Source: a virus. From it: DNA of 36,390 nucleotides. The stretch is taken from positions 1 through 36,390 of IMG/VR virus record IMGVR_UViG_3300006750_000033. The stretch is one strand, 5' to 3'. A program made the position numbers and the translations under genes. How positions within the stretch are numbered: the first letter of the stretch is position 1; the number at the start of each line of letters is the position of its first letter. Positions 3,239 through 34,188 of the stretch are shown piece after piece. Under the pieces are notes generated by a model. It saw only the letters and a program-made list of their open reading frames with translations, searched no databases and had not been told where the DNA came from.

Positions 3239-3394
3239 ATGATAACAAAAAAGAAACGTCACTACGCCAACCACTCCCTTACAAAAAATGGCTATTCAAG
3301 AGACGACAGAATCGTTGGCCGCACCACCCGCGAGGTACGCAGGCGTGAGGAGAGGAAACTGCTGAAGGCAGAAAGGCGGGAGCAGGGAGTATGA
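3239..3394 (+). CDS. Small highly basic protein, 51 aa
   Basis: An ORF of 51 residues from ATG 3239 to TGA 3392-3394. Its stop overlaps the start of the next gene in an ATGA, a usual sign of translational coupling. It begins MITKKKRHYANHSLTKNG and ends in a strongly charged helix (VRRREERKLLKAERREQ). No family is recognised. The composition suggests nucleic-acid binding. The 3063-3238 stretch before it is non-coding and contains a G-rich tract near 3156-3170. Confidence 0.55.
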   Translation: MITKKKRHYANHSLTKNGYSRDDRIVGRTTREVRRREERKLLKAERREQGV

Positions 3395-4188
3395 AACCCC
3401 TTACGATCCTCAGTTTAGGAGCAGGTGTACAGTCTACGGCATTGGCATTGCTCTCGGCAAGGGGTGAAGTGGAGAGGGTGGATGCGGCTATATTTGCGGA
3501 TACGATATGGGAACCTCGGGAGGTGTATGAGCATTTGGATTGGCTGGAGGAGGAATTGCCGTTCCCGGTTCATCGCGTCAGTCATGGTGATTTGCGGAAG
3601 GATGTTTTGTTGTCTGCGCGGGAGGGGAAGCGGGTAGCCACTCCCCCGTTTTTTACTGATCAGGGAAATGGCGATGGATTATTACGCAGGCAATGCACCC
3701 AGCAGTACAAGTTGGACCCTTTATTTAAAAAGATAAGGGGATTGCTGGGACTGAAGAAGGGGCAGCGTGTTCCTCATGGGGTTAAGGTGAGGAACCTTAT
3801 GGGGATCAGCCTGGATGAGATTCAGCGAATGAAGGAATCGCCCCATAAATGGATGGAAAACATTTTCCCCTTGGTTGAGAAGCGGATGAGTCGGCATGAC
3901 TGTTTGAGGTGGATGGAGAAGAACGGGTATCCCCGCCCTCCCCGTTCTGCCTGTGTGGGTTGTCCGTATCATTCATTGAAGGAATGGAGGAGCATCAAGG
4001 AAGATCCTGATGAGTGGGATGATGTGGTGAAGTTTGATAAGGAGATCAGGGGCGGACTGAATGGGACGAAATCGGCTTTATACCTCCACCGATCATTAAA
4101 GCCTTTGGATGATGTGGACTTGAGTACGGATGTTGAGCGGGGGCAGCTTACATTCCTGGATGAGTGTGATGGTATGTGTGGGAATTGA
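3391..4188 (+). CDS. PP-loop ATPase, PAPS-reductase-like family
   Basis: A 265-residue member of the adenine-nucleotide alpha-hydrolase-like (PP-loop) superfamily, which activates a substrate by adenylation or handles PAPS. The N-terminus carries the modified PP-loop LSLGAGVQSTAL (residues 7-18), followed by a strand with FADTIWEPREVYEHLDWL, as in phage proteins labelled PAPS reductase/sulfotransferase. Cysteines 102 (RRQCTQQYK), 171, 188 and 191 (CVGCP) could hold a metal or Fe-S cluster. It sits in a coupled string of small genes before the terminase. The substrate cannot be read from sequence. Phage roles suggested for this group include base or RNA modification and sulphur metabolism; none is shown here. 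Confidence 0.8.
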   Translation: MKPLTILSLGAGVQSTALALLSARGEVERVDAAIFADTIWEPREVYEHLDWLEEELPFPVHRVSHGDLRKDVLLSAREGKRVATPPFFTDQGNGDGLLRRQCTQQYKLDPLFKKIRGLLGLKKGQRVPHGVKVRNLMGISLDEIQRMKESPHKWMENIFPLVEKRMSRHDCLRWMEKNGYPRPPRSACVGCPYHSLKEWRSIKEDPDEWDDVVKFDKEIRGGLNGTKSALYLHRSLKPLDDVDLSTDVERGQLTFLDECDGMCGN

Positions 4189-10485: not shown

Positions 10486-10508
10486 GCGCAAAGCGAAAGG
10501 ATAATTCA

Positions 10509-11982
10509 ATGGCTGAATTATTTGAAATTAACCAGGTCGGTAAAAGAGAAGATCTGGCAAACATAGTGGCAATGGTCGATGCGAAAGACACCCCCGTTGC
10601 CAGCATGATCCCGAAAGGGAAAAAACCGGGTAAGGTATTATTGCCCACCCTTTAGGTGACTAGAGGGTAAACATTGCGGAATTAGCCGGGAAACCTAAAT
10701 GAGAAATCATAAGGCAATCCGAACCGAAGATCACGCAAAGCGTGACCAGGGGCAGAGCATAGGGGATGGAATAATTCCCCCAAGAGGCCGCGACTACTCG
10801 CAGGAGTAGAAAAGATATGCCGATCCCCGGTGGAAACGCCGGGAGGTGAGATAAAAAACTCACCGACAGTGTTTGAATACATACCTACAGTGGCAGGCAG
10901 ATAAATTATAATTGTCCACCCGGCAGGTGACTGCCGGGGAAGTATTGCGGAATTAAGCGGGGAATCTAAATGGGAAACCACAAGACAATCCGAACCGAAG
11001 GCGGGCAGGAACACCGTCAGGGGCAGAGCATACCGGGTGAAATAATCCCGGCAAGAGGCCGCGACAACTCTTTGAGTTGAAAAGATATGCCGATACTCCG
11101 TTGAAAAGCGGAGAGGTTGGATAAAAAGCCAACCGTTAACAGTTGAATATGCCAGCCGCAGTCAGCACGGGTAGTGTTGACGGTGTCGATGTAACGTATG
11201 CATCGGACTTTGAGAACTTGAACAGTGGCAGAAAGATTCTGTCAAATTACGTTCAGGTCTTCCAGCGTCCGATTCGCGTTAGCCCACTCTCAGTTGATGT
11301 CAGCATTGTTGCTGGTATCACCAACGAGTTGGCGAACATGACTGCAAAAGGTGTCCGCTTACTCAAGCGAGACATCGAGAAGTCAATCTGCTCGGATAAT
11401 GACGGGCAGGAGGATAACGGTACGCTCCCGTATCTGACCAAAGCGTTGGGTACATGGATCAGCACAACTGGCGGCACCACGCCAGCGGTGGACAGTGATT
11501 ATCGCACGCCAACGGCGAGCATATCGACTACCTCCGCAGCCTTAACAACAGAGACAGTGGTGCAGGACGTTTTAACGTCCATTTACGGGGAGACAGGCAA
11601 GTTTGGCAACTTTGATGCCGTACTGGGAACGACCATGAAACGGGCGTTCACTAACCTGGTCTTCACTACTACCGCAAGCGGGACTGATTCCTATCCTGCC
11701 ATCCGATCCTTTGATCGGGACGCAGCCGATAGTGCCTACAATAGCAATATAACGCTGTTTTCGGGCGATTTCGGCAAGCTAAGGCTTCACGCCTCGGCTT
11801 TTTTGCCTGCGGCAGATGATGGTTACATCCTGGATATGGAACTTCTGGAATTGCGCTACAGCAGTCAACCAGAAGTGACTACGCTGCCTGATTTGGGCGG
11901 TGGTCCAGCGAGGTTACTCAAGGCAGTAGCTGGATTGGTGTGCAAGAACCCTCTGGGTCTTGGCGCACTCCGACCTGCCTAA
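10509..11982 (+). CDS. Major capsid protein, three exons: join(10509-10631, 10876-10902, 11146-11982)
   Basis: Coat protein of the head (HK97-like fold inferred). Read straight through, the gene is broken: ATG 10509 (ribosome site AAAGGAT) runs 41 codons and then meets a stop in intervening sequence. Removing two group I introns joins exon 1 (ending IPKGKKPG), a 9-codon exon 2 (NTYLQWQAD) and exon 3 (beginning NMPAAVSTGSVDGVDV). The result is 328 residues. The join restores the pattern KKPGNT..xWQAD..GxVDGVDV that I know from related podoviral capsid proteins. All three boundaries fall between codons. The exon 3 frame alone (TTG 11143 or ATG 11149) would lack the N-terminal arm. Splicing is inferred from RNA structure, not observed. 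Confidence 0.88.
10632..10875 (+). ncRNA. Group I intron 1 in the capsid gene (IA-like, no ORF)
   Basis: A self-splicing intron of 244 nt, inferred from structure. P1 is GGGUAA/UUGCCC (10628-10633 with 10641-10646), with the splice-site U·G pair at U10631. P2 is an 8-bp hairpin with the GGUGAC loop also present in the phage T4 td intron. P3 is UUGCGG/CCGCGA. P5 is closed by GAAA. P6 is UCACGC/GCGUGA. P7 strands are GGCAGAGCAUA and GAUAUGCC. P7.1 is GGGGA/UCCCC, P8 is CUACUC/GAGUAG, P9 has a 7-bp stem with GAAA loop, and a last hairpin is GGUGAG/CUCACC. The terminal G is 10875. No endonuclease ORF is present. Confidence 0.9.
10876..10902 (+). other. 27-nt exon 2 of the capsid gene
   Basis: Nine codons (NTYLQWQAD) lie between the two introns. 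It begins AAT just after the terminal G of intron 1 and ends GAT, whose U pairs with G in the P1 of intron 2. Its length is a multiple of three and both flanking introns are phase 0, so both inclusion and skipping keep the frame. The encoded WQAD matches a conserved N-arm position in related capsid proteins. Confidence 0.85.
10903..11145 (+). ncRNA. Group I intron 2 in the capsid gene (IA-like, no ORF)
   Basis: A second intron of 243 nt, clearly homologous to intron 1. P1 is GAUAA/UUGUC (10900-10904 with 10912-10916), again with U·G at the splice site and a 7-base loop. P2 is CCCGGCA/UGCCGGG with the same GGUGAC loop. P3 and P7 are unchanged. P5 is UGG-GAAA-CCA, P6 is GGCGG/CCGUC, P7.1 is CCGGG/CCCGG, P8 is AACUC/GAGUU, P9 is CUCCGUU-GAAA-AGCGGAG, and the last hairpin is GGUUGG/CCAACC. 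Almost every stem differs from intron 1 but still pairs. The terminal G is 11145. No ORF is present. Confidence 0.9.
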
Positions 11983-15939: not shown

Positions 15940-17190
15940 ATGAGTATAATTAATCCATATCGATTTGCTGCTGCTGCTGATGAACCTTCGATAGCGATTT
16001 CACTCCTCTCTCCTTCTGTTGCGTATGCAGACGGTAGCACTTACACTGATGTTGAGGACGATTGGGGGGAGGTAGACGTAGACACAGAGAAAACTGTTGT
16101 CCTCAAGATTGAGAATACTGGCACTGCTGATCTAACGATTACAAGTGCTGACGCAGTCAATGTCCTTAACTCAGAGAGCCTCAGTCTAACTCCCACTTCT
16201 TCCACCATCTCCGCAAGTAGCAGTACAAATGCTGATCTTGTTTTCACGGCTACTGACACCGATTGCAGGGTGCAAATAACGGTCGAAAGCAACGCCCCCA
16301 GCACGCTCGCCACTTATGTTGTTTATTTTTGGGCTACTGCTGTTGCTGCTAGCAACCCTCCTCCCAGTGTTAATTATCTCATCGTTGCCGGCGGGGGGTC
16401 AAACGGCACTAGTGGAGGTCGCGGTGGAGGTGGAGGTGGAGGCGCATATTTAAGTAGTGACGACGCTGGCACTCAAGACCCTTCCGATACGGAGTGGGTG
16501 ATTGAGATAGGGGCTGGGGGCGCAGCAGCTTCTGGCATCTCTACCAACGGCAGTCAAGGTGGGTCGTCTTATATTTACGATGGTTCCTTTACATACTGGG
16601 GAGACACTGGCACTGGATGGGTTGAGGGGGGTGGTTTTGGCAGTGGAGGCACTGGCGGCGATGGCGGTGATGGCGGCAGCGGCGGTGGTGGTTTATCTTA
16701 TTATGCGACTTCCGGTGGTTCGGGGAATACTGATGGTAGTTGTTTGGTAAACGACGGCGGATCGGGTACGGGGTATGGTTTATATGGTGCTGGAGGAGGC
16801 GGTGGTGCTGGCGGCTCCGGGGGAAGTGGTTCTGGTAATGTCGGCGGCGACGGGGGTGATGCTCAGTCAAGCAGCATAACCGGATCGTCAACCGATTATT
16901 CTGGCGGCGGGGGAGGTGGTTCAACAAGCGGCACACCTTCTGGGGGAGGCACAAATTGCGGAGGATACGGCGGCGGCTCGGGCCAAGATGGCTATGCAAA
17001 TACCGGCGGCGGCTCGGGCGGCGGCGGCGGCTCGGCATTTAATGCTGGCGGCAGTGGAATCGTGGTAATCTCCCATTCTGATTCCTACGACACAGCAACC
17101 TATTCAGCCGCTTGCGCCTTCTCTGAATCGGGCGGCAACAAGATTTACAAGTTCACTGGCGACGGCACGATTGAGTGGGCAGCAGCATAA
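15940..17190 (+). CDS. Glycine-rich adhesin-like fibre protein
   Basis: A 416-residue protein. A short N-terminus (MSIINPYRFAAAADEP) leads into an Ig-like segment (about 30-130) with KTVVLKIENTGTADLTITSADA, like domains of the DUF1573 / choice-of-anchor type. The C-terminal 260 residues start VNYLIVAGGG and hold many poly-Gly runs (GGRGGGGGGG, GAGGGGGAGGSGG, GGGSGGGGGS) before GGSGIVVISH. This is the pattern of glycine-rich phage tip domains. By analogy with poly-Gly adhesins of T-even phages it could pack in polyglycine II layers. It is likely a receptor-binding tip. Confidence 0.8.
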   Translation: MSIINPYRFAAAADEPSIAISLLSPSVAYADGSTYTDVEDDWGEVDVDTEKTVVLKIENTGTADLTITSADAVNVLNSESLSLTPTSSTISASSSTNADLVFTATDTDCRVQITVESNAPSTLATYVVYFWATAVAASNPPPSVNYLIVAGGGSNGTSGGRGGGGGGGAYLSSDDAGTQDPSDTEWVIEIGAGGAAASGISTNGSQGGSSYIYDGSFTYWGDTGTGWVEGGGFGSGGTGGDGGDGGSGGGGLSYYATSGGSGNTDGSCLVNDGGSGTGYGLYGAGGGGGAGGSGGSGSGNVGGDGGDAQSSSITGSSTDYSGGGGGGSTSGTPSGGGTNCGGYGGGSGQDGYANTGGGSGGGGGSAFNAGGSGIVVISHSDSYDTATYSAACAFSESGGNKIYKFTGDGTIEWAAA

Positions 17191-17206
17191 AAAGGGAGAA
17201 TAACAA

Positions 17207-17632
17207 ATGGCACACTTTGCATCACTGGACACAGACAACAGCGTGATTAAGGTTCATTGCGTAAACAACAAGCAACTGCTCGACGTTGACGGCAGTGAAT
17301 CCGAGGAGTACGGCATCATGTATCTCCGCACGCTGCATAAAGGCGGACGATACAAGCAGACTTCATACAACACCCGAGGAGGAGTCCACAAGCTGGGAGG
17401 CACCCCGCTCCGCGCCAACTACTGTGGGAAGGGATGGCACTACGATCCCGATCTAGACATTTTCCATCCCCCACAACCCTACCCGTCATGGACTCTGGAC
17501 ACTGTAAAAGGTCACTGGAATTGTCCAGTGCCTTACCCGGAAATTGAAGTGGTAGAGGGAGAAATGCCACCGAGGTATAGCTGGAATGAGGATGAACAGC
17601 AGTGGGATGAGATGGAGATGCCGAGCGAATGA
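17207..17632 (+). CDS. Conserved marine-phage structural protein of unknown function
   Basis: A 141-residue protein starting after AAAGGGAGA. MAHFASLDTDNSVIKVHCVNNKQLLD, then YLRTLHKGGRYKQTSYNTRGG, and the Pro-rich PYPSWTLDTVKGHW, match a small family I know from cyanophages and pelagiphages near fibre genes. Its members share the 'SYN...R.NYxGxGxxYD...F.PPxPYPSW' pattern. Here that pattern reads RANYCGKGWHYDPDLDIFHPP. Its function is not known. Trp/Tyr/Pro-rich ends suggest binding to fibre or carbohydrate. Confidence 0.75.
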   Translation: MAHFASLDTDNSVIKVHCVNNKQLLDVDGSESEEYGIMYLRTLHKGGRYKQTSYNTRGGVHKLGGTPLRANYCGKGWHYDPDLDIFHPPQPYPSWTLDTVKGHWNCPVPYPEIEVVEGEMPPRYSWNEDEQQWDEMEMPSE

Positions 17633-22202: not shown

Positions 22203-24404
22203 ATGGCAACATTCACAATCGGGGGCGGACAGTCAGGCAACATTTCACCTTTCCTGACGGGGAAGGCAACACCGATGTCTCTGCCGCCGGGATATCTTTC
22301 GGCGGCACAGGCGCAAGCTGCCATGATGCAGAAGGCTATCAGTGGTGTCGGTGCGGATATTGGTGATGCTATTGTTGCTTACAGTAAAAATAAGGAGCAG
22401 GAAGAAGTGCTTGCGGGATCACTTGAGAGGTTGAAACCTCGTCTTGAGGCAGCAGCACAGGCAGGGGCAATGGCTGACCCTTCTAGTGAGGAAAGTGCCT
22501 TGCTCAAGGCTATTGAGAACTTCCCATCCAAGTCACGCGGACAAAAGAAACAGATTCTGGCAGACTCACTAATGTTCCTTGACCGACAGGAAAAGGAGCG
22601 TGACCAGTTGGATACTCGCTACCTGAGAGGCTTGCAGACTGACCTTGTAAAAGGAAAAGTCAGGGAGATGAAGGAAGGGCAATTACTAGGGGATGCCCTT
22701 AATGATTTATCTTGGGATGAAGCAAGTGATTGGGGTGCGAAAAAGGACGCATTAACGTCTACAAGGGAAAAAGCCGAGGCACTTTCACAGAGGCAACAGG
22801 ACACCGCAAGAGCAGGGCAGTATTTGAGTGAGGTGCCAGCAGTCCGCAGGGCAGGAGAGAAGGTAAAGGGAGTCGGCGGCGACATTCTTGAACTGCTGGG
22901 ATTAAGGGAGGGAGAGTATTCAGTTGATGATTATCTGAAGGAGTATGACAGGACGCAGGCGCAGAAAGAAAAGGCCGAAAGTGATTTCAATCAAGAGATG
23001 ATGGAAACTGTCATCATCCCCCACCAGCAACGACAGACATTGGATGCGTTAAAAAACCCTGCGCTACAGCAGGCAGTAAGGGGCGCAGCAGGCGCACTTG
23101 CCGCTCCCTATCAGAAGGCACCCCCTCAAACACCTGAACAGATGTTCCCTGAGTTGAAGGATCTTGATGATGAGCAAAAGGCGGCGATCAGGAATTTTCT
23201 CAACCTGAAGAAACGTCAGCCAGTTGGGCCAGGTGGCTTACCGCAGGGCGACCTTCCTGAACTACCTCCCCTTCCCATGCCTGATGAGAGACTGCGGCAA
23301 CCGTTACCAATGATTGAGGGGGAAGAGGAACTTCAGTTCAAGTGGGATGATCCTCCCACTCCCGCGCAAATGAAACGTGTCAATGAGATTATTCCAGGGA
23401 TTGAGCCACCTGAAGAGGTTGAGGCAGCGGAACCACCCTCACGCTTGACTCAACAAGCTATTGATCAGCAGGAAAAGACTCTCGGGGAGGCAATGGGGCA
23501 TTTGAAATCCACCCTTAAAAATCAAGCGTTAATCGATCAAGTATTAGCACAGCAGAAGGCAACCACACAACCTGCTCCTCCAGAGATTCCTGCCCCAACT
23601 CCTTCCAGGCAAGAGCCTGCATGGTTGAAGCCTTACCAGCAGCAGATGCGTTATCTTGTTGAGAGTAAGGGTCATAAGAGTACCAAGGCACTCCGCGATG
23701 CGGTTAAGGCGGCAGCGATGGAGAGGTTTCCAGAGGGTCTTAAAGAGCATGACACAGGTCATGCTTATGTGGTTACGAATGACGGCAAAGTTGTGTTCCA
23801 GGTTAAGAAGGATATTCCAGAGAAGATTCCAGTGGGCGCACCCATGATTTTTGACCTGCCCAATGGAAGACAGGGGTTCAGGCAGGCCAATGGCAATGTT
23901 GAGTTAATCCCAGAGAAAACCCATAAAGGAACGAAGCCCACGGCAGATCAGTCCAATGCGTATATGTATGGAATGCGGATGCGCGACAACGCCAAGGCAA
24001 TTGATAACCTATTGGCAAAGGGAAGGTACAACCCCGAGGAACTAATCGAGAGAGTGAGAGCGAATGTTGATTGGGACATTGCTGAAATTACCAGATCAGT
24101 GGAGGACAAGGAGTTTCTCTCCGCTTCACAGAACTGGATTGCGGCAGTTCTGCGTAAGGAATCGGGCGCAAGGATTGACCCGAAGGAATACTCAGACGCC
24201 GCTTATCAATACTTCCCGGCACTAGGAGACAGTGAGGGAACGATGAAGAGAAAAGCGCAACTCAGGAAGTTGGTTGAAGAGGTTATGCTCGACGTTGCCG
24301 GGGGCATGACTCTTGAGGAGATAAAGGCAACAACTGAGGGAGGCGCACCAGAGGGTGGCATTAGAGTCCGAAGATTTGGTTCGGACGGCAAGCCAATTCA
24401 GTAA
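22203..24404 (+). CDS. Internal virion protein, 733 aa
   Basis: A large helical protein with Pro-rich linkers (about 300-480). The C-terminal region (NAKAIDNLLAKGRYNPEEL, then FLSASQNWIAAVLRKESGARIDPKEYSDAAYQYFP and GDSEGTMKRKAQLRKLVEEVM) is a segment I recognise from many phage internal or structural proteins. The N-terminus (MATFTIGGGQSGNISPFLTG) is Gly-rich. The stop overlaps the ATG of the giant gene (TAATG). It probably leaves the head with the DNA at infection, together with its two neighbours. Confidence 0.75.
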   Translation: MATFTIGGGQSGNISPFLTGKATPMSLPPGYLSAAQAQAAMMQKAISGVGADIGDAIVAYSKNKEQEEVLAGSLERLKPRLEAAAQAGAMADPSSEESALLKAIENFPSKSRGQKKQILADSLMFLDRQEKERDQLDTRYLRGLQTDLVKGKVREMKEGQLLGDALNDLSWDEASDWGAKKDALTSTREKAEALSQRQQDTARAGQYLSEVPAVRRAGEKVKGVGGDILELLGLREGEYSVDDYLKEYDRTQAQKEKAESDFNQEMMETVIIPHQQRQTLDALKNPALQQAVRGAAGALAAPYQKAPPQTPEQMFPELKDLDDEQKAAIRNFLNLKKRQPVGPGGLPQGDLPELPPLPMPDERLRQPLPMIEGEEELQFKWDDPPTPAQMKRVNEIIPGIEPPEEVEAAEPPSRLTQQAIDQQEKTLGEAMGHLKSTLKNQALIDQVLAQQKATTQPAPPEIPAPTPSRQEPAWLKPYQQQMRYLVESKGHKSTKALRDAVKAAAMERFPEGLKEHDTGHAYVVTNDGKVVFQVKKDIPEKIPVGAPMIFDLPNGRQGFRQANGNVELIPEKTHKGTKPTADQSNAYMYGMRMRDNAKAIDNLLAKGRYNPEELIERVRANVDWDIAEITRSVEDKEFLSASQNWIAAVLRKESGARIDPKEYSDAAYQYFPALGDSEGTMKRKAQLRKLVEEVMLDVAGGMTLEEIKATTEGGAPEGGIRVRRFGSDGKPIQ

Positions 24405-27400
24405 TGGCAATTTATATTGATGTCAACGGGGAGATACTTGAGTTTCCTGATGGAACTCCTGACAGTATAATTGGTGAAACCATTCGACGCGAGTTCCCCC
24501 CTACCGGTGAGGATTACTACAACCTTTCCATGTCCGACCCTGCGGAGGCACTCCGCACAATGGGTCTTCCTGCTTATGCCCAAATGCGGGCGCATGAGGC
24601 AACTGTGCCTGATCCGTCAGTAGCGGAGATGGCAAAGGGTACGGTAGGAACAATATGGGAAGGGTTAAAGGAGTATGCGACCGCCCCGGGCTTTGGTGTT
24701 CTTGGTCAGCTTCAACAGGCAGAGGCAGGGATGCGGGCCTTCGGTGCAGGAACAGGTGACCTTGCCGCAATGGTGACCGATGTCATTCATCCCGACACTG
24801 AAGATACCTACAAGCAATGGTTGACTGAAAATGAGCAGGAAGACTCGGACGAAAACCGGGTGACTTATGTCAATAGATTGGCGGATGACTTCAAGGTGTG
24901 GCAGCAACAGATGGAACACCAGAGAAGGCGCAAGAAGATCGTGGAGGAATCTCCCTTACCCGCAGCAACTGAGGCAGGAAGCTACATCGCTGATCCCGCC
25001 ATGCTGCTAGGCGGCACAGGAGCAGCGGCAAGGCTCCCAAGGATTGCTGCCGGTGCTGCTGCAAGGGGAGCAGGTTGGGCAGCGACAAAAGCAGGCAAGG
25101 CAGCAACCCGTGCAGGGACTATTCCCGAAAGGGCAGCAGGCGCAATTGCGGGGGAAGGTGCAGAGGCAGCGGTCAGGAAAGGAACAAACATCACTGGAGG
25201 CATCGGTGCCGGGGTAATGGCAGCAGGCCAACCTCTTGGGGCAGTAGCCGCACTTCCCGGCGCACTCAAGGCGGCAGGAAGGGGACTCGAAGTTGCCGGT
25301 GACATCAGCACTGCGGCAGGCAAGGCACTGCGCGAGGGTGGTCGTCTGGGAATGATGGAGCGGGCGGCACAGCTTCTTCCGCTTAAATCAGCAGGCCGGA
25401 AAATAGCAGAGGGACTCGCAGTCGTTGACCCACTCATTGCACTGGGAGGCAAGACAGCAACCGGCATGGGAGTTGGCTACGGTGTCGGCGGAACCCTTGG
25501 CGCATTTGCTGGGCGCAAGGAGAATCAATGGCCCTGGGAAGCATGGAACTCGACTGAAGCAATCCACGGCAAAGGCATGGGCCTTGCCCTTGGGGGAATG
25601 GGCGGACTGGCTTTCGGGGGGATTGATGCAGTCACCAAGAGCGGTATGCGCCAAAAGCGGGTGGCAGATGTGGAACGGCACATGGGTCAGTTGCCAGAGA
25701 AGTATCAAGCCCTGTGGCGCGACTATATCGAGGAGCAGGGCATCGACAATGCTGCCACGCTTCTGGATATAGAGAACATTATGAGGGGCGAACTTGGCGA
25801 AGCCAAGGCAATCTATACCAAGGAAGGTGCTGACGCGAGGGGGGTTACCTACGGAGTGGATGAGGCTGGCAACGTCACGGTCAAGATCAACCTGGATAAA
25901 ATGGATGCTGCCTGGACGATGGGACATGAGTTTGGTCATGTTCTGCGTAAGGCTATCCAGCTTGAGCCACAGTATGATGCGGTATTGCAGAAGATTACCG
26001 GGGTTCATGTTGGTGATGAAGTCAAGGTTCCCGGTGTAATTAGTGAGGCTGAAATTGCTGCCCGATTTAATCAATACATTAAGGATTTGGCAGTCACCCA
26101 CCCGCATGAGGCTGGGCAGACGGTGGCTGATTATGGTGGCACCGCAGAAAAACGCGCCCGCTTTGTCGGTGAGGAGATTGTCAGCGAACACCTTGCCGCA
26201 TTGATTCGCGGGTCGGGTACGGACTCAATGTTAAGGGGGTTTGATACGTTCACCCAGAGGAAGCTGGATAATCTCCTGATCCGTAATTCCAGCAATATCC
26301 TGGGGGCAATGGCATCACGATTCACTGACATTGGCCTGAACCCAATGGACTCAATTTCCTTTAAGGGACTTGAAAAAGCATCCCCACTGGTGAATGCCCT
26401 GCTGCGTGACCTTGTTCGCGCACGCAAGAACCTTGGGGAAGAGATGAATTTGTCGGAGGGCAGGAAGAGCGTTGTTATCGACTGGAAGGATCTTGATGCC
26501 TTTGGGCCTGAACTTGAGAGGTTTGGACTGGCAGAAAAAGATCCCGCCACCGGCAAGTATGTCCAAAAGCCACGGGAGGATATGCAGGCAATGGAGGAGG
26601 CATCCCACAAGGCAGTGATGGACATTATCAAGGATGATGATGGTGCCGGGGTGGGGGTGAGGAAGTACACTGATGAAAATGGTAATGTTGTAGAGATCCT
26701 TACCGGCGGCAAGTTTAGTCCTGAACAGATGGCAGCAATCGGGGATAGTGCTGCCATACTGCCCGCAGTGCGGGAAAACCTGAAGGCATTGATAAATCAT
26801 ATGCGCGATGGGGATGTTATAAATTTTGATGGATTGGAAGCTACGGGACGAACAAGGAACCGGCGCACAGGGAAATATCGCAGCACTTACAAGTCTTCAC
26901 TCAAGAAGAGCAATCGAGACGCAGTAATTTATGCCCTTGAGGTGACCAAGGCAGGGAACATCACTGCGAGGGCGATGAACTGGTCAAACGTCAATACTTA
27001 TGCCCGCCAACTGGCGAGCAAGGGTAAACTTGGACCGTGGGGCAATCGTCCCGCTGACTTTATTGCAGACTTGAGGACGTACCTTGAGAATCTGTCATCT
27101 ACTGATCCCGTCAGGACTCGCAAGCTGTTTGCTGATGAGAAGAAGGCTCAAATACTGCATGACTTTGTCCAGGGTCAACGGAAAGGCGGCTCAAAGTTTT
27201 TCAGAACCTACAGGCTTGAGCGGATGGGCAACATTCAGCCCACTTCCGAAAGGGTCAAACTATCTGAGGAAGCAATCCAGTTATCCAAGGCACGCTTCCA
27301 ACCCGACTCCTTCACCCCTGAGAAACTCCCAGGCGGCGAAGCCTTTGTGCATGAGTCTGGTTACAACATTTTACAGAAAGGCCGAGGCAAGTTCCGGGTC

Positions 27401-30400
27401 TACAAGCCTGACGGTGAACTGCTGGGACTGCGTGACACCATGAAGAGTGCCTCTTCCCTAGCCGGGAGAAATTACCGAAAAGGGGAAGCACGGTTCATGG
27501 CAGCGGCAGAGATTGATCCGCTCGGTATGTTTTCAAAGGCTGAAAGTGCTGCATTGGAGTTGAAGCAGGCCAAGGGATCGGGCCAACAGATGCTTGCGAT
27601 GCTGAAGAAGGCTGGAGTTAAGCCCGAGGAGATGCAGTATCTCGGTCTTGATAAGTTCCTTAAAGACAAGAAGTCAGTCACCAGGGACGAGATCCACGAT
27701 CACATTGTCCAGAACCAGATTACTGTTGAGGAGACGGTTTTAGGGCAGAGCAGGGAATTTGCTGCACTGAAAACTGAACAGGATGTATTGCAGCAGGGTT
27801 TTGAGCGTGAGTTTGGTAATGATTGGTTTCCCGAGGCGATGCAAGACCCTCGGTATGCTCGGATTCAGGACGAACTAGAAATTCAGCGGGGGCAGGTAAC
27901 CGACCCCACCAAACACCCCACCCAAGTCGAACCCGGCGCAGTCGAGGGCAGTTACCGGGAGTTGTTGTTACGGTTGCCTGAGAAGACTGACCGGAGCGGG
28001 TTGCCAGAGGGTTACAGTCTTGTTGAGGGAACTGGTCTGAAAAAGTGGGAGGTCTTCGGCCCCGGCACAAGTCGCTACTCATCCGGCCAAACCAAAGCAG
28101 AGGCAATCGGATCGTTTTGGGATATGCACGGCAAGGCAGCCGACTACACCGGAGGCCATTACGGTGAATACCCCAACACCCTCGCCCATATCCGGTTTCA
28201 GGATCGGCAAAGCGAAAAGTATGGCAAGGTGCTGGATATTCAGGAGATCCAATCTGACTGGCACCAGGAGGGACGGAAGAAGGGGTATCAGGGAGGGGAG
28301 ACAGTGGCGGAAGTTCAGAAGTTAGCCCATGCTGACCGGGAAAAGTTCTATAGTGGCAAGGGAAAGATGTCGGATGCCGAGTGGAATGCTTTATCTGAAC
28401 GAGTCAAGCAGTGGGACGAGCGTGAAGCTGCCGCAGCCGGTGCCGTCCCAGACGCACCCTTCAAAACCAGTTGGCATGAACTCGCCATGAAGCGGATGAT
28501 CAAGTATGCCGCTGATAATGGTTATGATGCGATTGCATGGACGAAGGGTGAGACGCAGTTCAGTCGGTACGGTTCGCAGGAGATTGCATGGGTGAAGGAC
28601 GGTGACGGCTGGAACGTCAAGGCCACTGAACAGAGAGGCGGGGAAGCTGGGGGCATTGACATCGAAGGTGCTGCACGGGCAGAGGGTATCCTGAAGGAAG
28701 GTGGCTCGCGCATCACCAGCAAGGAACAGTTGCGCGCCCTAATCAAGAAGACGGTGATGGATCGTGAGCGGGGGCAATGGTCACCGGAGAATTTCGAGAA
28801 GCAGGTTGATAAGCTAACCGACCGCACTTGGGAGAGAATGCAAAACGAGGATGCCGGGACATCGCTACCGCGCAAGGAAGGCATGGAAGGTTTCTACGAC
28901 CGTATGTTACCCAAGATCAAGACCTGGAAGAAACTGGGCCTGAAGGTGGAGGAGGGTGATGTAAATCCGAAGGGGGAGTTTGATCCCGGTCAATTTGAAA
29001 TGATCACAGAGGAGGGTGATAACATCTCGCGCCCCTTCACTCCTGAAACCCCCGCCCACATCGTCCGCCTCTCGCCCGAGGTAAAGGCGAAGGTGGTGGA
29101 GGAAGGGGTGGCACGGTTTCAGCCAGCGGCACAGGAGGCACTTGAGGGCAGGGTTGTTCCCGGCACACCGCTGGCCGGGACAGTTGTTATATCACCTGAA
29201 CTTGCTGCCCGCTTCCAGCCTGCGGTCATGGACCCAGGCTACCAGTCGCCTGAAGGCAAGGTAGCCTTCCCGATGATGGCAGACAGGATGAAGGTGGGAA
29301 CCTATAAGGCGAGAAGTGGCAAGGAATTTGAACTGCGCGGTGGACCTGACCATCCTGACCTGGTGGACAATAAGGGGCTTGTGGCATGGGCAGTTGAGGG
29401 GGGCAATACTGCCACCAAGTTGCAGAAAGCAATCAATGAGACTGACGGTATCGCGTTGGTAACCCTACAGGATGAGGGTGCAGTGTCTGGGAACAAGGAC
29501 TTCAGAAACATCATGCTTCACGAATTAAGGCATGACCAGGCAACCAACAAGAAGGCAGCACGATCACTTCCGCGCAGGATCAGGGAGGCAGCGGCAGCAA
29601 TCAGGAAAACAGCCAAGAAAAAGCGACTGAAGAAACAGGCAGCGGCACCAAAGGGCAAAAAGGTTGCCAAGAGTCAGTGGGAAGATTTCAGGCCAAAGAC
29701 ACTGGACGAACTTGAGGCTACGATGGTTGATATGCCCTTTGAGACAAGGGGCGACGTTCTCAGGAAACTTGCCAGCATAGATTACAAGCGAAAGACCGGC
29801 GGCATATTCTGGCGGGATGTCATGGGGGACACAATCGCATACAAGAATGAGGACGGGTACAGGACTGGTGACATTGTCAAGGTGATCCAGTTTGATCAGG
29901 GTGAAAGCATTGTTAACCCCAAGGACGTTGGAACCCCCGAGCATCCATCCTACAAGTTTGCCGTCAAGGGACGCTCGATCAGCAACATCAAGGGGCGTCT
30001 GAGTGCCTTCCAGGTATTCAGGGATGCGTTTGAGACAATGGGCAAGGAGGCACCTGGACGCGGAGTCTCCCCCGAGGGCAAGGTGGGCGCAAGTGCTTAT
30101 CGCTCAATGATGATGCGTTCCATGACTGACCCAATTTTCCGTGAAGATGTGAGCGGCAAGACCCTTGACGTTAAGGCATACGATGAACCCCTTGAGTTCA
30201 GCGGCAAGACCGGACCCGAACGGGCAGAACTCCAAAGGCGATCAGAAATAAACCGGGAACTGGGCGCACGCTTCCAGCCAGCAGAACCCCTCCTGGGCGG
30301 CACAGCATGGCGCAATGGTGCCGGTTACAATGTTTTACAGAAGGGCAAGCGGGGCAAGTTCAGGGCATACGCACCATCAGGTAAGCTGATCGGGATATAT

Positions 30401-31279
30401 GACCAACTGAAAACTGCACAAAAGGCGGCTATCCGGTTGCAGGAAAAGGACGCTACTGGTAAGGCTAGGTTTATGCCTGCGGGGAAGAAGGTGGCAAAAG
30501 ATATAGAGTTACTGTTGGACAAGTATGACGACGGGGGTCACGGGATTGATACTGTGGAAGATGTTTTGGTTAAGCTAAAAGACATCATTGCCGAGGAAAA
30601 TGTTTACGAAATAGATGATGCCATCACTGCCCTGAACAGAGCAATTGATGATGATTGGGATTCAGCGGGCAGAGGTGGGTTCAAGGAGGAGGGTGAGCAA
30701 AAGTTCCTTGATACGCTTGAGGCTTTTGTAGCGAAAAATAAAAAGCCAAAGAAACCGACGAAAGGTGGCAAGGCAGAGAAGGCAAAGGACTTGCGGGAAG
30801 AGTTAATTCGTAAAGGTGAGGCCGCCAAACAACGCAGGCTTGAAAAAGAGTCAGGCGCAGATCAGGCTAGGTTTATGCCTGCGGAAGATGCAAGAAGTGC
30901 CATAATAAAAAGATACGATGGCCCGACTACTATTGAGGCGGCAGACGTTGATGGGTATGTGAAGTTTGTCGAGGCAAAACAAGATGTACTTTATGAAATC
31001 GATTTACCAGAGGGATGGGAAGTTAATTGGGATAAATCGAACAATCACACAAAATGGGGAACTGCATACTATTCCATCAAAGACCCTGGAGGAGAGTTTC
31101 ACAAAGTAAGGATAGGTGACCATCCAGCCAGTAGAGCGAGGGAAGGTGAACTTGGGGCAAGTGAATATCGATTTGAACTCTCCAAACCCGCAACGCTGGA
31201 AAGCTGGAGTAATGCGGTTGGCTACATTGAGAGTTGGGCCAAAAAGAAAAACGATGAATGGGGATTTGGCCCACAATAA
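24404..31279 (+). CDS. Giant multidomain internal virion / polyvalent protein, 2291 aa
   Basis: The largest gene of the window, probably ejected into the cell with the DNA. A short N-terminal domain (MAIYIDVNGEILEFPDGTPDSIIGETI) is of a kind common in ejected proteins. Ala/Gly-rich hydrophobic stretches follow at about 195-310 and 345-410. HEFGH (508-512) fits a zinc protease motif, and a second HExxH is HELRH (1706-1710). Residues about 1265-1510 (IQEIQSDWHQEGRKKG, VPDAPFKTSWHELAMKR, FYDRMLPK) match a domain of phage and conjugative polyvalent proteins. Seven ARF[Q/M]-type motifs (963, 1029, 1570, 1602, 1955, 2021, 2155) sit between domains. The activities are predictions. Confidence 0.85.
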   Translation: MAIYIDVNGEILEFPDGTPDSIIGETIRREFPPTGEDYYNLSMSDPAEALRTMGLPAYAQMRAHEATVPDPSVAEMAKGTVGTIWEGLKEYATAPGFGVLGQLQQAEAGMRAFGAGTGDLAAMVTDVIHPDTEDTYKQWLTENEQEDSDENRVTYVNRLADDFKVWQQQMEHQRRRKKIVEESPLPAATEAGSYIADPAMLLGGTGAAARLPRIAAGAAARGAGWAATKAGKAATRAGTIPERAAGAIAGEGAEAAVRKGTNITGGIGAGVMAAGQPLGAVAALPGALKAAGRGLEVAGDISTAAGKALREGGRLGMMERAAQLLPLKSAGRKIAEGLAVVDPLIALGGKTATGMGVGYGVGGTLGAFAGRKENQWPWEAWNSTEAIHGKGMGLALGGMGGLAFGGIDAVTKSGMRQKRVADVERHMGQLPEKYQALWRDYIEEQGIDNAATLLDIENIMRGELGEAKAIYTKEGADARGVTYGVDEAGNVTVKINLDKMDAAWTMGHEFGHVLRKAIQLEPQYDAVLQKITGVHVGDEVKVPGVISEAEIAARFNQYIKDLAVTHPHEAGQTVADYGGTAEKRARFVGEEIVSEHLAALIRGSGTDSMLRGFDTFTQRKLDNLLIRNSSNILGAMASRFTDIGLNPMDSISFKGLEKASPLVNALLRDLVRARKNLGEEMNLSEGRKSVVIDWKDLDAFGPELERFGLAEKDPATGKYVQKPREDMQAMEEASHKAVMDIIKDDDGAGVGVRKYTDENGNVVEILTGGKFSPEQMAAIGDSAAILPAVRENLKALINHMRDGDVINFDGLEATGRTRNRRTGKYRSTYKSSLKKSNRDAVIYALEVTKAGNITARAMNWSNVNTYARQLASKGKLGPWGNRPADFIADLRTYLENLSSTDPVRTRKLFADEKKAQILHDFVQGQRKGGSKFFRTYRLERMGNIQPTSERVKLSEEAIQLSKARFQPDSFTPEKLPGGEAFVHESGYNILQKGRGKFRVYKPDGELLGLRDTMKSASSLAGRNYRKGEARFMAAAEIDPLGMFSKAESAALELKQAKGSGQQMLAMLKKAGVKPEEMQYLGLDKFLKDKKSVTRDEIHDHIVQNQITVEETVLGQSREFAALKTEQDVLQQGFEREFGNDWFPEAMQDPRYARIQDELEIQRGQVTDPTKHPTQVEPGAVEGSYRELLLRLPEKTDRSGLPEGYSLVEGTGLKKWEVFGPGTSRYSSGQTKAEAIGSFWDMHGKAADYTGGHYGEYPNTLAHIRFQDRQSEKYGKVLDIQEIQSDWHQEGRKKGYQGGETVAEVQKLAHADREKFYSGKGKMSDAEWNALSERVKQWDEREAAAAGAVPDAPFKTSWHELAMKRMIKYAADNGYDAIAWTKGETQFSRYGSQEIAWVKDGDGWNVKATEQRGGEAGGIDIEGAARAEGILKEGGSRITSKEQLRALIKKTVMDRERGQWSPENFEKQVDKLTDRTWERMQNEDAGTSLPRKEGMEGFYDRMLPKIKTWKKLGLKVEEGDVNPKGEFDPGQFEMITEEGDNISRPFTPETPAHIVRLSPEVKAKVVEEGVARFQPAAQEALEGRVVPGTPLAGTVVISPELAARFQPAVMDPGYQSPEGKVAFPMMADRMKVGTYKARSGKEFELRGGPDHPDLVDNKGLVAWAVEGGNTATKLQKAINETDGIALVTLQDEGAVSGNKDFRNIMLHELRHDQATNKKAARSLPRRIREAAAAIRKTAKKKRLKKQAAAPKGKKVAKSQWEDFRPKTLDELEATMVDMPFETRGDVLRKLASIDYKRKTGGIFWRDVMGDTIAYKNEDGYRTGDIVKVIQFDQGESIVNPKDVGTPEHPSYKFAVKGRSISNIKGRLSAFQVFRDAFETMGKEAPGRGVSPEGKVGASAYRSMMMRSMTDPIFREDVSGKTLDVKAYDEPLEFSGKTGPERAELQRRSEINRELGARFQPAEPLLGGTAWRNGAGYNVLQKGKRGKFRAYAPSGKLIGIYDQLKTAQKAAIRLQEKDATGKARFMPAGKKVAKDIELLLDKYDDGGHGIDTVEDVLVKLKDIIAEENVYEIDDAITALNRAIDDDWDSAGRGGFKEEGEQKFLDTLEAFVAKNKKPKKPTKGGKAEKAKDLREELIRKGEAAKQRRLEKESGADQARFMPAEDARSAIIKRYDGPTTIEAADVDGYVKFVEAKQDVLYEIDLPEGWEVNWDKSNNHTKWGTAYYSIKDPGGEFHKVRIGDHPASRAREGELGASEYRFELSKPATLESWSNAVGYIESWAKKKNDEWGFGPQ
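27290..27500 (+). repeat. Duplicated coding module, copy 1 in the giant gene
   Basis: It encodes about 70 residues beginning ARFQPD and ending GEARFM. The core GYNILQKGRGKFRVYKPDG is followed by LLGLRD. The second copy lies at 30266-30475. The two are similar in protein but diverged in DNA, so the duplication is old. Confidence 0.75.
30266..30475 (+). repeat. Duplicated coding module, copy 2 in the giant gene
   Basis: It encodes ARFQPA, then GYNVLQKGKRGKFRAYAPSG and LIGIYD, ending GKARFM. This is the same order as copy 1 at 27290-27500, about 990 residues upstream. Both copies are bounded by an ARFQP motif on the left and an ARFM motif on the right. Confidence 0.75.
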
Positions 31280-33000: not shown

Positions 33001-34188
33001 TTAAGCCTCCCTTGCCACCTTAACGTCAGGATCAGCGTAGTACCGATCAGTGGTTGAGTAATCCGCATGACCGGCCAGGTGCTGGGCAACATGAATGCCT
33101 GCAACCCTCGCCATGTGGCTGATGTAGTTGGCCCGCAATGCGTGCAGTTTCTTGTTTGAGCCGGTGAGTTTCTTTGTCCAGCCAAGATCAGCCAACCATC
33201 TATTCAGACGGTCAGGAGTGTGGCGCACGCGATCTGTCTTGGTTCCGCACAGGATATGGTCATCCTCATTGCGTCCCTTGGTCAACTCAAGTAACTCCTC
33301 ATAAATGTCTGGGAGCAGCAGCATTTCCCGGTCATGCCCGCTCTTCGTCAAGTAGTCATGGGTTGACTGGATATTGACCTCATGGTCCCCCAACCAAGAG
33401 ATTCGGGCATTGACGATTTCAGACTTACGCAACCCGGCATTGCGGGCCAAGACGTACATCTTGTATGCCTCTGGGTCGGAAGTCTTGAGATCCCTTGCCG
33501 CCGCCTCGGTGCGCCCAGCAAGAGACTTATCCTTGGGTGCCTTGAAGCGAACCGCTCCACCACGTTCCACCTGATACTTGGTAAACTCCTTGAGGTCAGG
33601 CAACGTGATGCAGTGAGGTTCCTCCGAAAAGATTTGGTATGTCTTGGCCGAGAACAATGACTTTGCGTTGATAAAGCGGGTATGGGTGGACCTCTTGATG
33701 GTAACAAGATCCTCCGTACCCTTGGCGCGTGAGCGCATCAGCTTGATGTACTTGCGTATCAGCGCAGCGTCAAGAATGGTCAGTGGTTGCTTGTCCACCA
33801 GTGAATTGCGGGCCTTGCGTTGCTTGGTCTTTAGCCGCAAGCGATTGTTGTTGAAGGAAGGATCAAGGGTCTGACCCACGATGGTGTAAAGGGACATACG
33901 ATAACCGATCCAAGAGTTATGTCGCACACCCGTATCGGTTGCAGTCTTCTGCACGCAAAGTTTCTCATACAGGTCGAGGAACTCCCCAATGGTCAGCACC
34001 TTGGCCTTGCGCTTAACAAGATCAGCGATCTCATCAAACTTACCCTGACGCAGACCGTCGAAGTAAACCTTGGCCCGCGCCTTGGCAGTGCGCTTGTTTG
34101 CCGTGCCGGTATTCCACCATTTCTTCTTGCCGTCGATTGGCTCGATGGCAGTCCAAGTGTCCGATCCTTTTCTCTGTATCAGTGTCAT
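33001..34188 (-). CDS. int: Tyrosine-family integrase
   Basis: A 395-residue site-specific recombinase. The catalytic set is visible: Arg254 (NAGLRKSEI), Lys282 (TKSGHDRE), His349 and Arg352 (HALRANY), His374 (LAGHADYS) and the nucleophile Tyr383 or Tyr384 (TDRYY). The N-terminal 60 residues resemble an arm-binding domain (KKWWNTGTANKRTAKARAKVYFDGL), and residues about 65-190 a core-binding domain. The only other minus-strand gene is an RHH regulator. The gene ends next to attP, and its upstream region holds palindromic operator-like sites, so it is probably under repressor control. Confidence 0.95.
   Translation of the reverse strand: MTLIQRKGSDTWTAIEPIDGKKKWWNTGTANKRTAKARAKVYFDGLRQGKFDEIADLVKRKAKVLTIGEFLDLYEKLCVQKTATDTGVRHNSWIGYRMSLYTIVGQTLDPSFNNNRLRLKTKQRKARNSLVDKQPLTILDAALIRKYIKLMRSRAKGTEDLVTIKRSTHTRFINAKSLFSAKTYQIFSEEPHCITLPDLKEFTKYQVERGGAVRFKAPKDKSLAGRTEAAARDLKTSDPEAYKMYVLARNAGLRKSEIVNARISWLGDHEVNIQSTHDYLTKSGHDREMLLLPDIYEELLELTKGRNEDDHILCGTKTDRVRHTPDRLNRWLADLGWTKKLTGSNKKLHALRANYISHMARVAGIHVAQHLAGHADYSTTDRYYADPDVKVAREA

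Follow-up and report, generated by a model that had tools for sequence, protein, structure and literature searches.

We are highly confident that the major capsid pre-mRNA of the phage studied here carries two compact group I ribozymes of IA type that contain no open reading frame (ORF), that it is spliced to an mRNA for a protein of 328 amino acids, and that both introns belong to a mobile family whose members filled their sites separately. The window, i.e. the whole stretch of DNA that was analyzed, comprises 36,390 nucleotides (IMG/VR record IMGVR_UViG_3300006750_000033), and the capsid gene, which is of the SU10 type (PF17236), occupies positions 10509-11982 of its plus strand as three exons of one frame. 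Exon 1 (10509-10631) holds codons 1-41 (MAELFEI...KKPG) and ends in a U, exon 2 (10876-10902) consists of 27 nt that encode NTYLQWQAD, and exon 3 (11146-11982) holds codons 51-328 and the stop (NMPAAV...). Between them lie intron 1 (10632-10875) and intron 2 (10903-11145), both on the plus strand and both with G as last base. The preliminary description of this DNA had reported interruptions of 244 and 243 nt in the capsid frame, and these lengths are exactly as given there. The gene structure is near certain, and splicing of both introns is very likely, judging from the sequence.

The exons, when joined, form 987 nt that encode 328 residues plus the stop, with residues 10-325 of the product matching PF17236 (SU10_MCP) at 130.2 bits in a profile search, where the curated cut-off is 24.1. 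The joined protein aligns from end to end with 17 uninterrupted relatives at 61-69% identity, and the residues of exon 1 run without a break in them. Nearly all residues of exon 2 are invariant in the intronless relatives; N42-T43 and L45-Q46-W47-Q48-A49-D50-N51-M52-P53 are identical in all 17, which covers both junctions, as are the junction residues KPG-N and QAD-NMP. The earlier expectation that splicing at the predicted points restores the frame and the conserved N-terminal arm thus holds. The stretch with both interruptions contains stop codons in all three frames, so the inserts are not inteins. The existence of continuous relatives would also suit inserts bypassed by ribosomes as hop elements, a reading to which, together with the intein, we give practically no chance, as the inserts are 243-244 nt long with a covarying group I core. 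The hop of T4 gene 60 is short, unlike such inserts.

The reading as introns is best judged from relatives with empty sites, the relatives compared being IMG/VR contigs. Two of these from two other IMG/VR sample numbers (L001 and L002) are 99.9% identical to the window over 2.4 kb, both introns included, so misassembly of a single record does not account for the arrangement, and a further contig with 92% nucleotide identity (L004) also has both introns. In L003, intron 1 is present and site 2 is empty, with GCAGAC continuous with AATATG. In L025, site 1 reads CCGGGGAATACATACC without an intron, so that exon 2 is fused directly to exon 1; intron 2 is kept, and extra introns are found at codons 11/12 (217 nt) and within codon 123 (243 nt). 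The intron sets are therefore {A, 2, 3} in L025 and {1, 2} in the window. After splicing in silico, 20 of the 987 nt distinguish the two genes; 19 of these differences are synonymous and 327 of 328 residues are identical, which means that one protein is encoded under two intron sets. In our view, these natural empty alleles settle the interpretation of the capsid gene as intron-bearing. Seven of the 20 differences lie no more than 15 nt away from one of the three polymorphic sites (p = 0.0014), a clustering that would fit an exchange of flanks along with the intron. As a separate observation, the window is 87% identical to L025 upstream of position 10542, where L025 has its first extra intron, and about 98-99% identical downstream of it, which looks like the beginning of a recombination track. 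The SU10 genes with introns all fall into a single close clade, made up of the window and five contigs; the more distant SU10 loci, 72 of 77, have no introns.

Both introns fold into P2 (GUGA loop), P3 (UUGCGG/CCGCGA), P7 (GCAUA/UAUGC), P7.1, P8 and P9 (GAAA loop), and all helices of a group I core were found, namely a P4-P6 domain and a P3-P7-P8 domain with the P3/P7 pseudoknot. In intron 1, the 5' strand of P3 lies at 10674-10679 and its partner at 10788-10793, with covariation in the alignments A4 and A5; the 5' strand of P7 (10757-10761, partner 10816-10820) forms the pseudoknot with P3 and is drawn from fold and covariation. The fold as first described was correct for P2, P3, P7, P9 with its GAAA loop, the U·G splice pair and the terminal G. 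It erred in giving P7 a GAAA loop, as P7 is a pseudoknotted core helix without a loop of its own and the GAAA loops are on P9 and P5a.

This fold is not due to chance, as follows from the folding z-scores of the two introns (-5.9 and -5.1) and from covariation above shuffled controls. In A4, a sequence-only alignment of nine cores on which the group I structure was drawn by hand, 94.0% of the pair cells are formed, compared with 31-40% after sliding of the partners; changes on both sides are seen in 27 of 48 pairs, compared with 12.8 after shuffling. The covariation is 0.422, versus 0.151 for shuffled and 0.04-0.11 for slid controls, and four of five measures lie above every shuffle. P3, P4, P6, P7 and P7.1 are paired in every member (P3, P4, P6 and P7 to 100%), and in one phage contig (L116) P3 has changed from UUGCGG/CCGCGA to UUGGAG/CUCCAA. 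A set of 108 introns, whose alignment was fitted to the model, gives 96.9% paired cells versus 31-45%, with 38 of 43 pairs changed on both sides. Together with the intron-free alleles, this covariation bears out the original proposal that the major capsid gene is interrupted by two group I introns.

With splice points taken from the comparison with empty alleles, an exon-end U paired to a guide G and a terminal intron G are found in both window introns and in both extra introns of L025. At site 1, homology alone leaves a play of 1 nt, and the rule of a preceding U and a terminal G picks 10632-10875. Intron 2 pairs with its exon in a short P1 of 3 bp plus an extension. The lengths of the P1 and P10 helices were considered as proof of the splice sites and rejected, as they do not single them out. 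Subgroup IA has extra hairpins between P7 and P3 (P7.1, P7.2); P7.1 is present in every aligned member, with P7.2 not identified among them, which makes an IA architecture probable and leaves IA2, the subgroup of td, as a possible assignment. The label "td-like" is apt for the architecture, with its group IA features, and inapt for the sequence, since the family model built from these introns (R1) finds nothing in T4.

The scores against general models need to be read with care. The preliminary description had looked to an RF00028 match over both introns; at the gathering score (50), neither is matched, and a whole-window Rfam scan at E<=0.1 lists neither of them and no other structured RNA. 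A local scan with RF00028 does recover both, full-length, on the plus strand and below threshold, at 23.3 bits (intron 1) and 14.9 bits (intron 2). Among control phage introns, that of T4 reaches 105 bits, the LittleE capsid intron 30.7, SPO1 25.6 and one Twort match 22.7. Verified phage introns thus score about as low, so that a weak RF00028 score is not evidence against a group I intron, and the gathering score is a database cut-off rather than a defining trait of these introns. Within the window, R1 finds both introns (cores 10674-10843 and 10945-11113) and nothing else, at 193 bits each, a score that is not independent because R1 was built from them; the uninterrupted relatives give no match. 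T4, SPO1, SPbeta and LittleE were considered as members of the family, and R1 finds none of them and matches Twort only weakly (14.6 bits), which sets the introns apart as a separate sequence family. A blastn search for the introns in named phages gave no match.

In the proposed mechanism, the end of the 5' exon would pair in each intron with an internal guide to form P1, with the U·G pair at the splice site, and a guanosine would bind at P7, upon which cutting and joining of the exons would follow, presumably independent of proteins. The product would be an mRNA for the full SU10-type capsid protein. We regard it as very improbable that splicing has been lost, leaving a broken gene or a 48-residue N-terminal peptide plus a shortened capsid protein that starts near 11143/11149. 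Exon 3 by itself is a 279-codon ORF that still matches PF17236 (95.5 bits), and there are reports of split phage genes whose introns fail to splice, such as Aeh1 nrdA in the literature cited in PMC7344957. However, exons 1 and 2 are still conserved, 19 of the 20 differences from L025 leave the protein unchanged, and the intron helices are preserved through compensatory changes. A start at 11149 is itself unlikely, because no ribosome-binding-site-like sequence stands ahead of it, whereas AAAGGA (10496-10501, plus strand, read from the sequence) precedes the start codon at 10509.

Alternative splicing from the 5' site of intron 1 to the 3' site of intron 2 is a somewhat unlikely addition to the full splicing preferred here, which it would accompany and not replace. 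It would yield an in-frame capsid protein without nine near-invariant residues, since the length of exon 2 is a multiple of three, and the guide of intron 1 (GUAUU) can form 5 bp with AAUAU in the 3' exon of intron 2. Phage group I introns are known to skip exons, as described in PMC11878797 for SIOphi and, in its account of earlier work, for the three introns of Twort orf142. The product would probably be non-functional because the skipped residues are nearly invariant. Exon skipping, if it occurs, is directly testable, as the middle exon is so short and in frame.

Besides full splicing of the capsid gene, the mobility of the intron family is the second part of our proposal. The core motif was found in at least 119 contigs in viral_contigs and at 18 loci in bacterial or archaeal genomes, mostly Bacillota, with ribonucleotide reductase as a frequent host gene. 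Among the matches listed, 44 of 89 distinct viral contig groups contain a major capsid gene of one of two families, SU10_MCP or phrog_267/Phage_capsid_4, and the exons adjoining the intron belong to phrog_267/Phage_capsid_4 in 42 loci. As these listed matches are a sample selected by the motif, they offer no more than a lead towards a preference for capsid genes. The distribution within either capsid family is sporadic and most genes are intron-free; about 77 of 80 near relatives of L095, for example, have none. L116 has four introns (minus strand, cores 2104-2257, 1754-1911, 1351-1525 and 606-792) within its phrog_267-type capsid gene or at the end of it, and there are four hits in the full record of L128 and three each in L125 and L091. 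The capsid introns examined measure about 240-270 nt and are too short for an endonuclease ORF; where the family occurs in other genes, HNH or GIY-YIG ORFs lie next to the core. Among the ORFs scanned in the window there is no homing endonuclease. New is a compact intron family that is often found in capsid genes, with up to four members per gene and in two capsid families. One family intron stands beside a terminase-looking gene in L164, a contig of an archaeal MAG assigned to Candidatus Heimdallarchaeota; L164 is probably a phage contig binned with that MAG.

A tree built from 108 cores requires at least four separate placements for the introns of this capsid gene in the window and its relatives, with the site-1 introns beside introns of phrog_267 capsid genes and the site-2 introns beside L109. 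As the introns at the four sites are not one clade, they appear to have been acquired separately, and the four sites were most likely filled independently. Intron 2 was also considered as a local copy of intron 1, their guides being one base apart, and this reading was rejected because the tree separates the two. The family would move between phage genes, with its presence varying among near-identical phages. It may do so by reverse splicing, by recombination of the flanking DNA, or by homing or recombination that uses an endonuclease provided in trans. An identical P6a stretch, GGCCGACAAGAATACGGTC, is shared by introns at different sites (L003:3124-3367 and L025:3579-3821), the remainder of which differs, and this suggests recombination between introns.

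Placement of the phage itself by its terminase was given up, as this gave only "Phage C75C1" (31% over most of the protein). It may be temperate, given an integrase-like gene (phrog_1) at 33001-34188 on the minus strand. A gene at 3391-4188 resembles phosphoadenosine phosphosulfate reductase (phrog_424, 8e-46) and is a possible auxiliary metabolic or DNA-modification gene. The window also contains a single ORF of 2291 codons (24404-31279), unusually long for the genome.

The preliminary description took two introns in one major capsid gene to be unusual, which is only partly right, as capsid introns and capsid genes with several introns have already been reported. The mycobacteriophage LittleE has a self-splicing intron, most likely of group I, in its major capsid gene, likewise with a U before and a G at its end, and splicing was demonstrated by RT-PCR and N-terminal sequencing (Pope et al. 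2013, PMC3706429). That case differs in being a single intron of 820 bp whose opposite strand carries an endonuclease ORF, in another phage lineage and without a match to R1. In the Zeta-group crAss-like cMAG OLRF01000054, the capsid ORF is broken into five fragments and three segments are of group I type, and introns are typical of the capsid gene in the Delta group, according to the relevant passages of Yutin et al. 2021 (PMC7886860). In these passages, which concern large gut phages, the introns are recognized mainly via encoded domains such as endonucleases, and near-identical empty alleles are not described. Twort orf142 (tail tube), as summarized in PMC11878797 from Landthaler & Shub 1999, is alike in having several group I introns in one structural gene with exon skipping, and differs in being a tail gene that R1 matches only weakly. 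The three RF00028 matches found in Twort at 16606-17506 presumably are its introns. Jug phages also have small group I introns, with a mean of about 206 nt and 37 of 76 backed by metatranscriptome reads, but these are huge gut phages and the host genes named are terL, nrdD and DNA polymerase (PMC12363816).

Among the known capsid genes and multi-intron structural genes, the capsid gene of the window is a well-resolved further case. Automated annotation tends to overlook such genes, and here the N-terminal 50 residues would go missing. A 2025 study of Bastillevirinae asked why the only genes colonized by introns are those for nucleotide and DNA metabolism (PMC11878797); against that pattern, one compact family sits here in what are normally among the most heavily used late genes. 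It is tempting, though we consider it unlikely, to suppose that an ORF-less group I family, still on the move and common to unrelated phages, favors major capsid genes, where it can reach four introns per gene, and that capsid production is controlled at the step in which several ribozymes splice out of a single late transcript. Near-identical phages that carry unlike intron sets and encode the same protein constitute a natural experiment on the gain and loss of introns.
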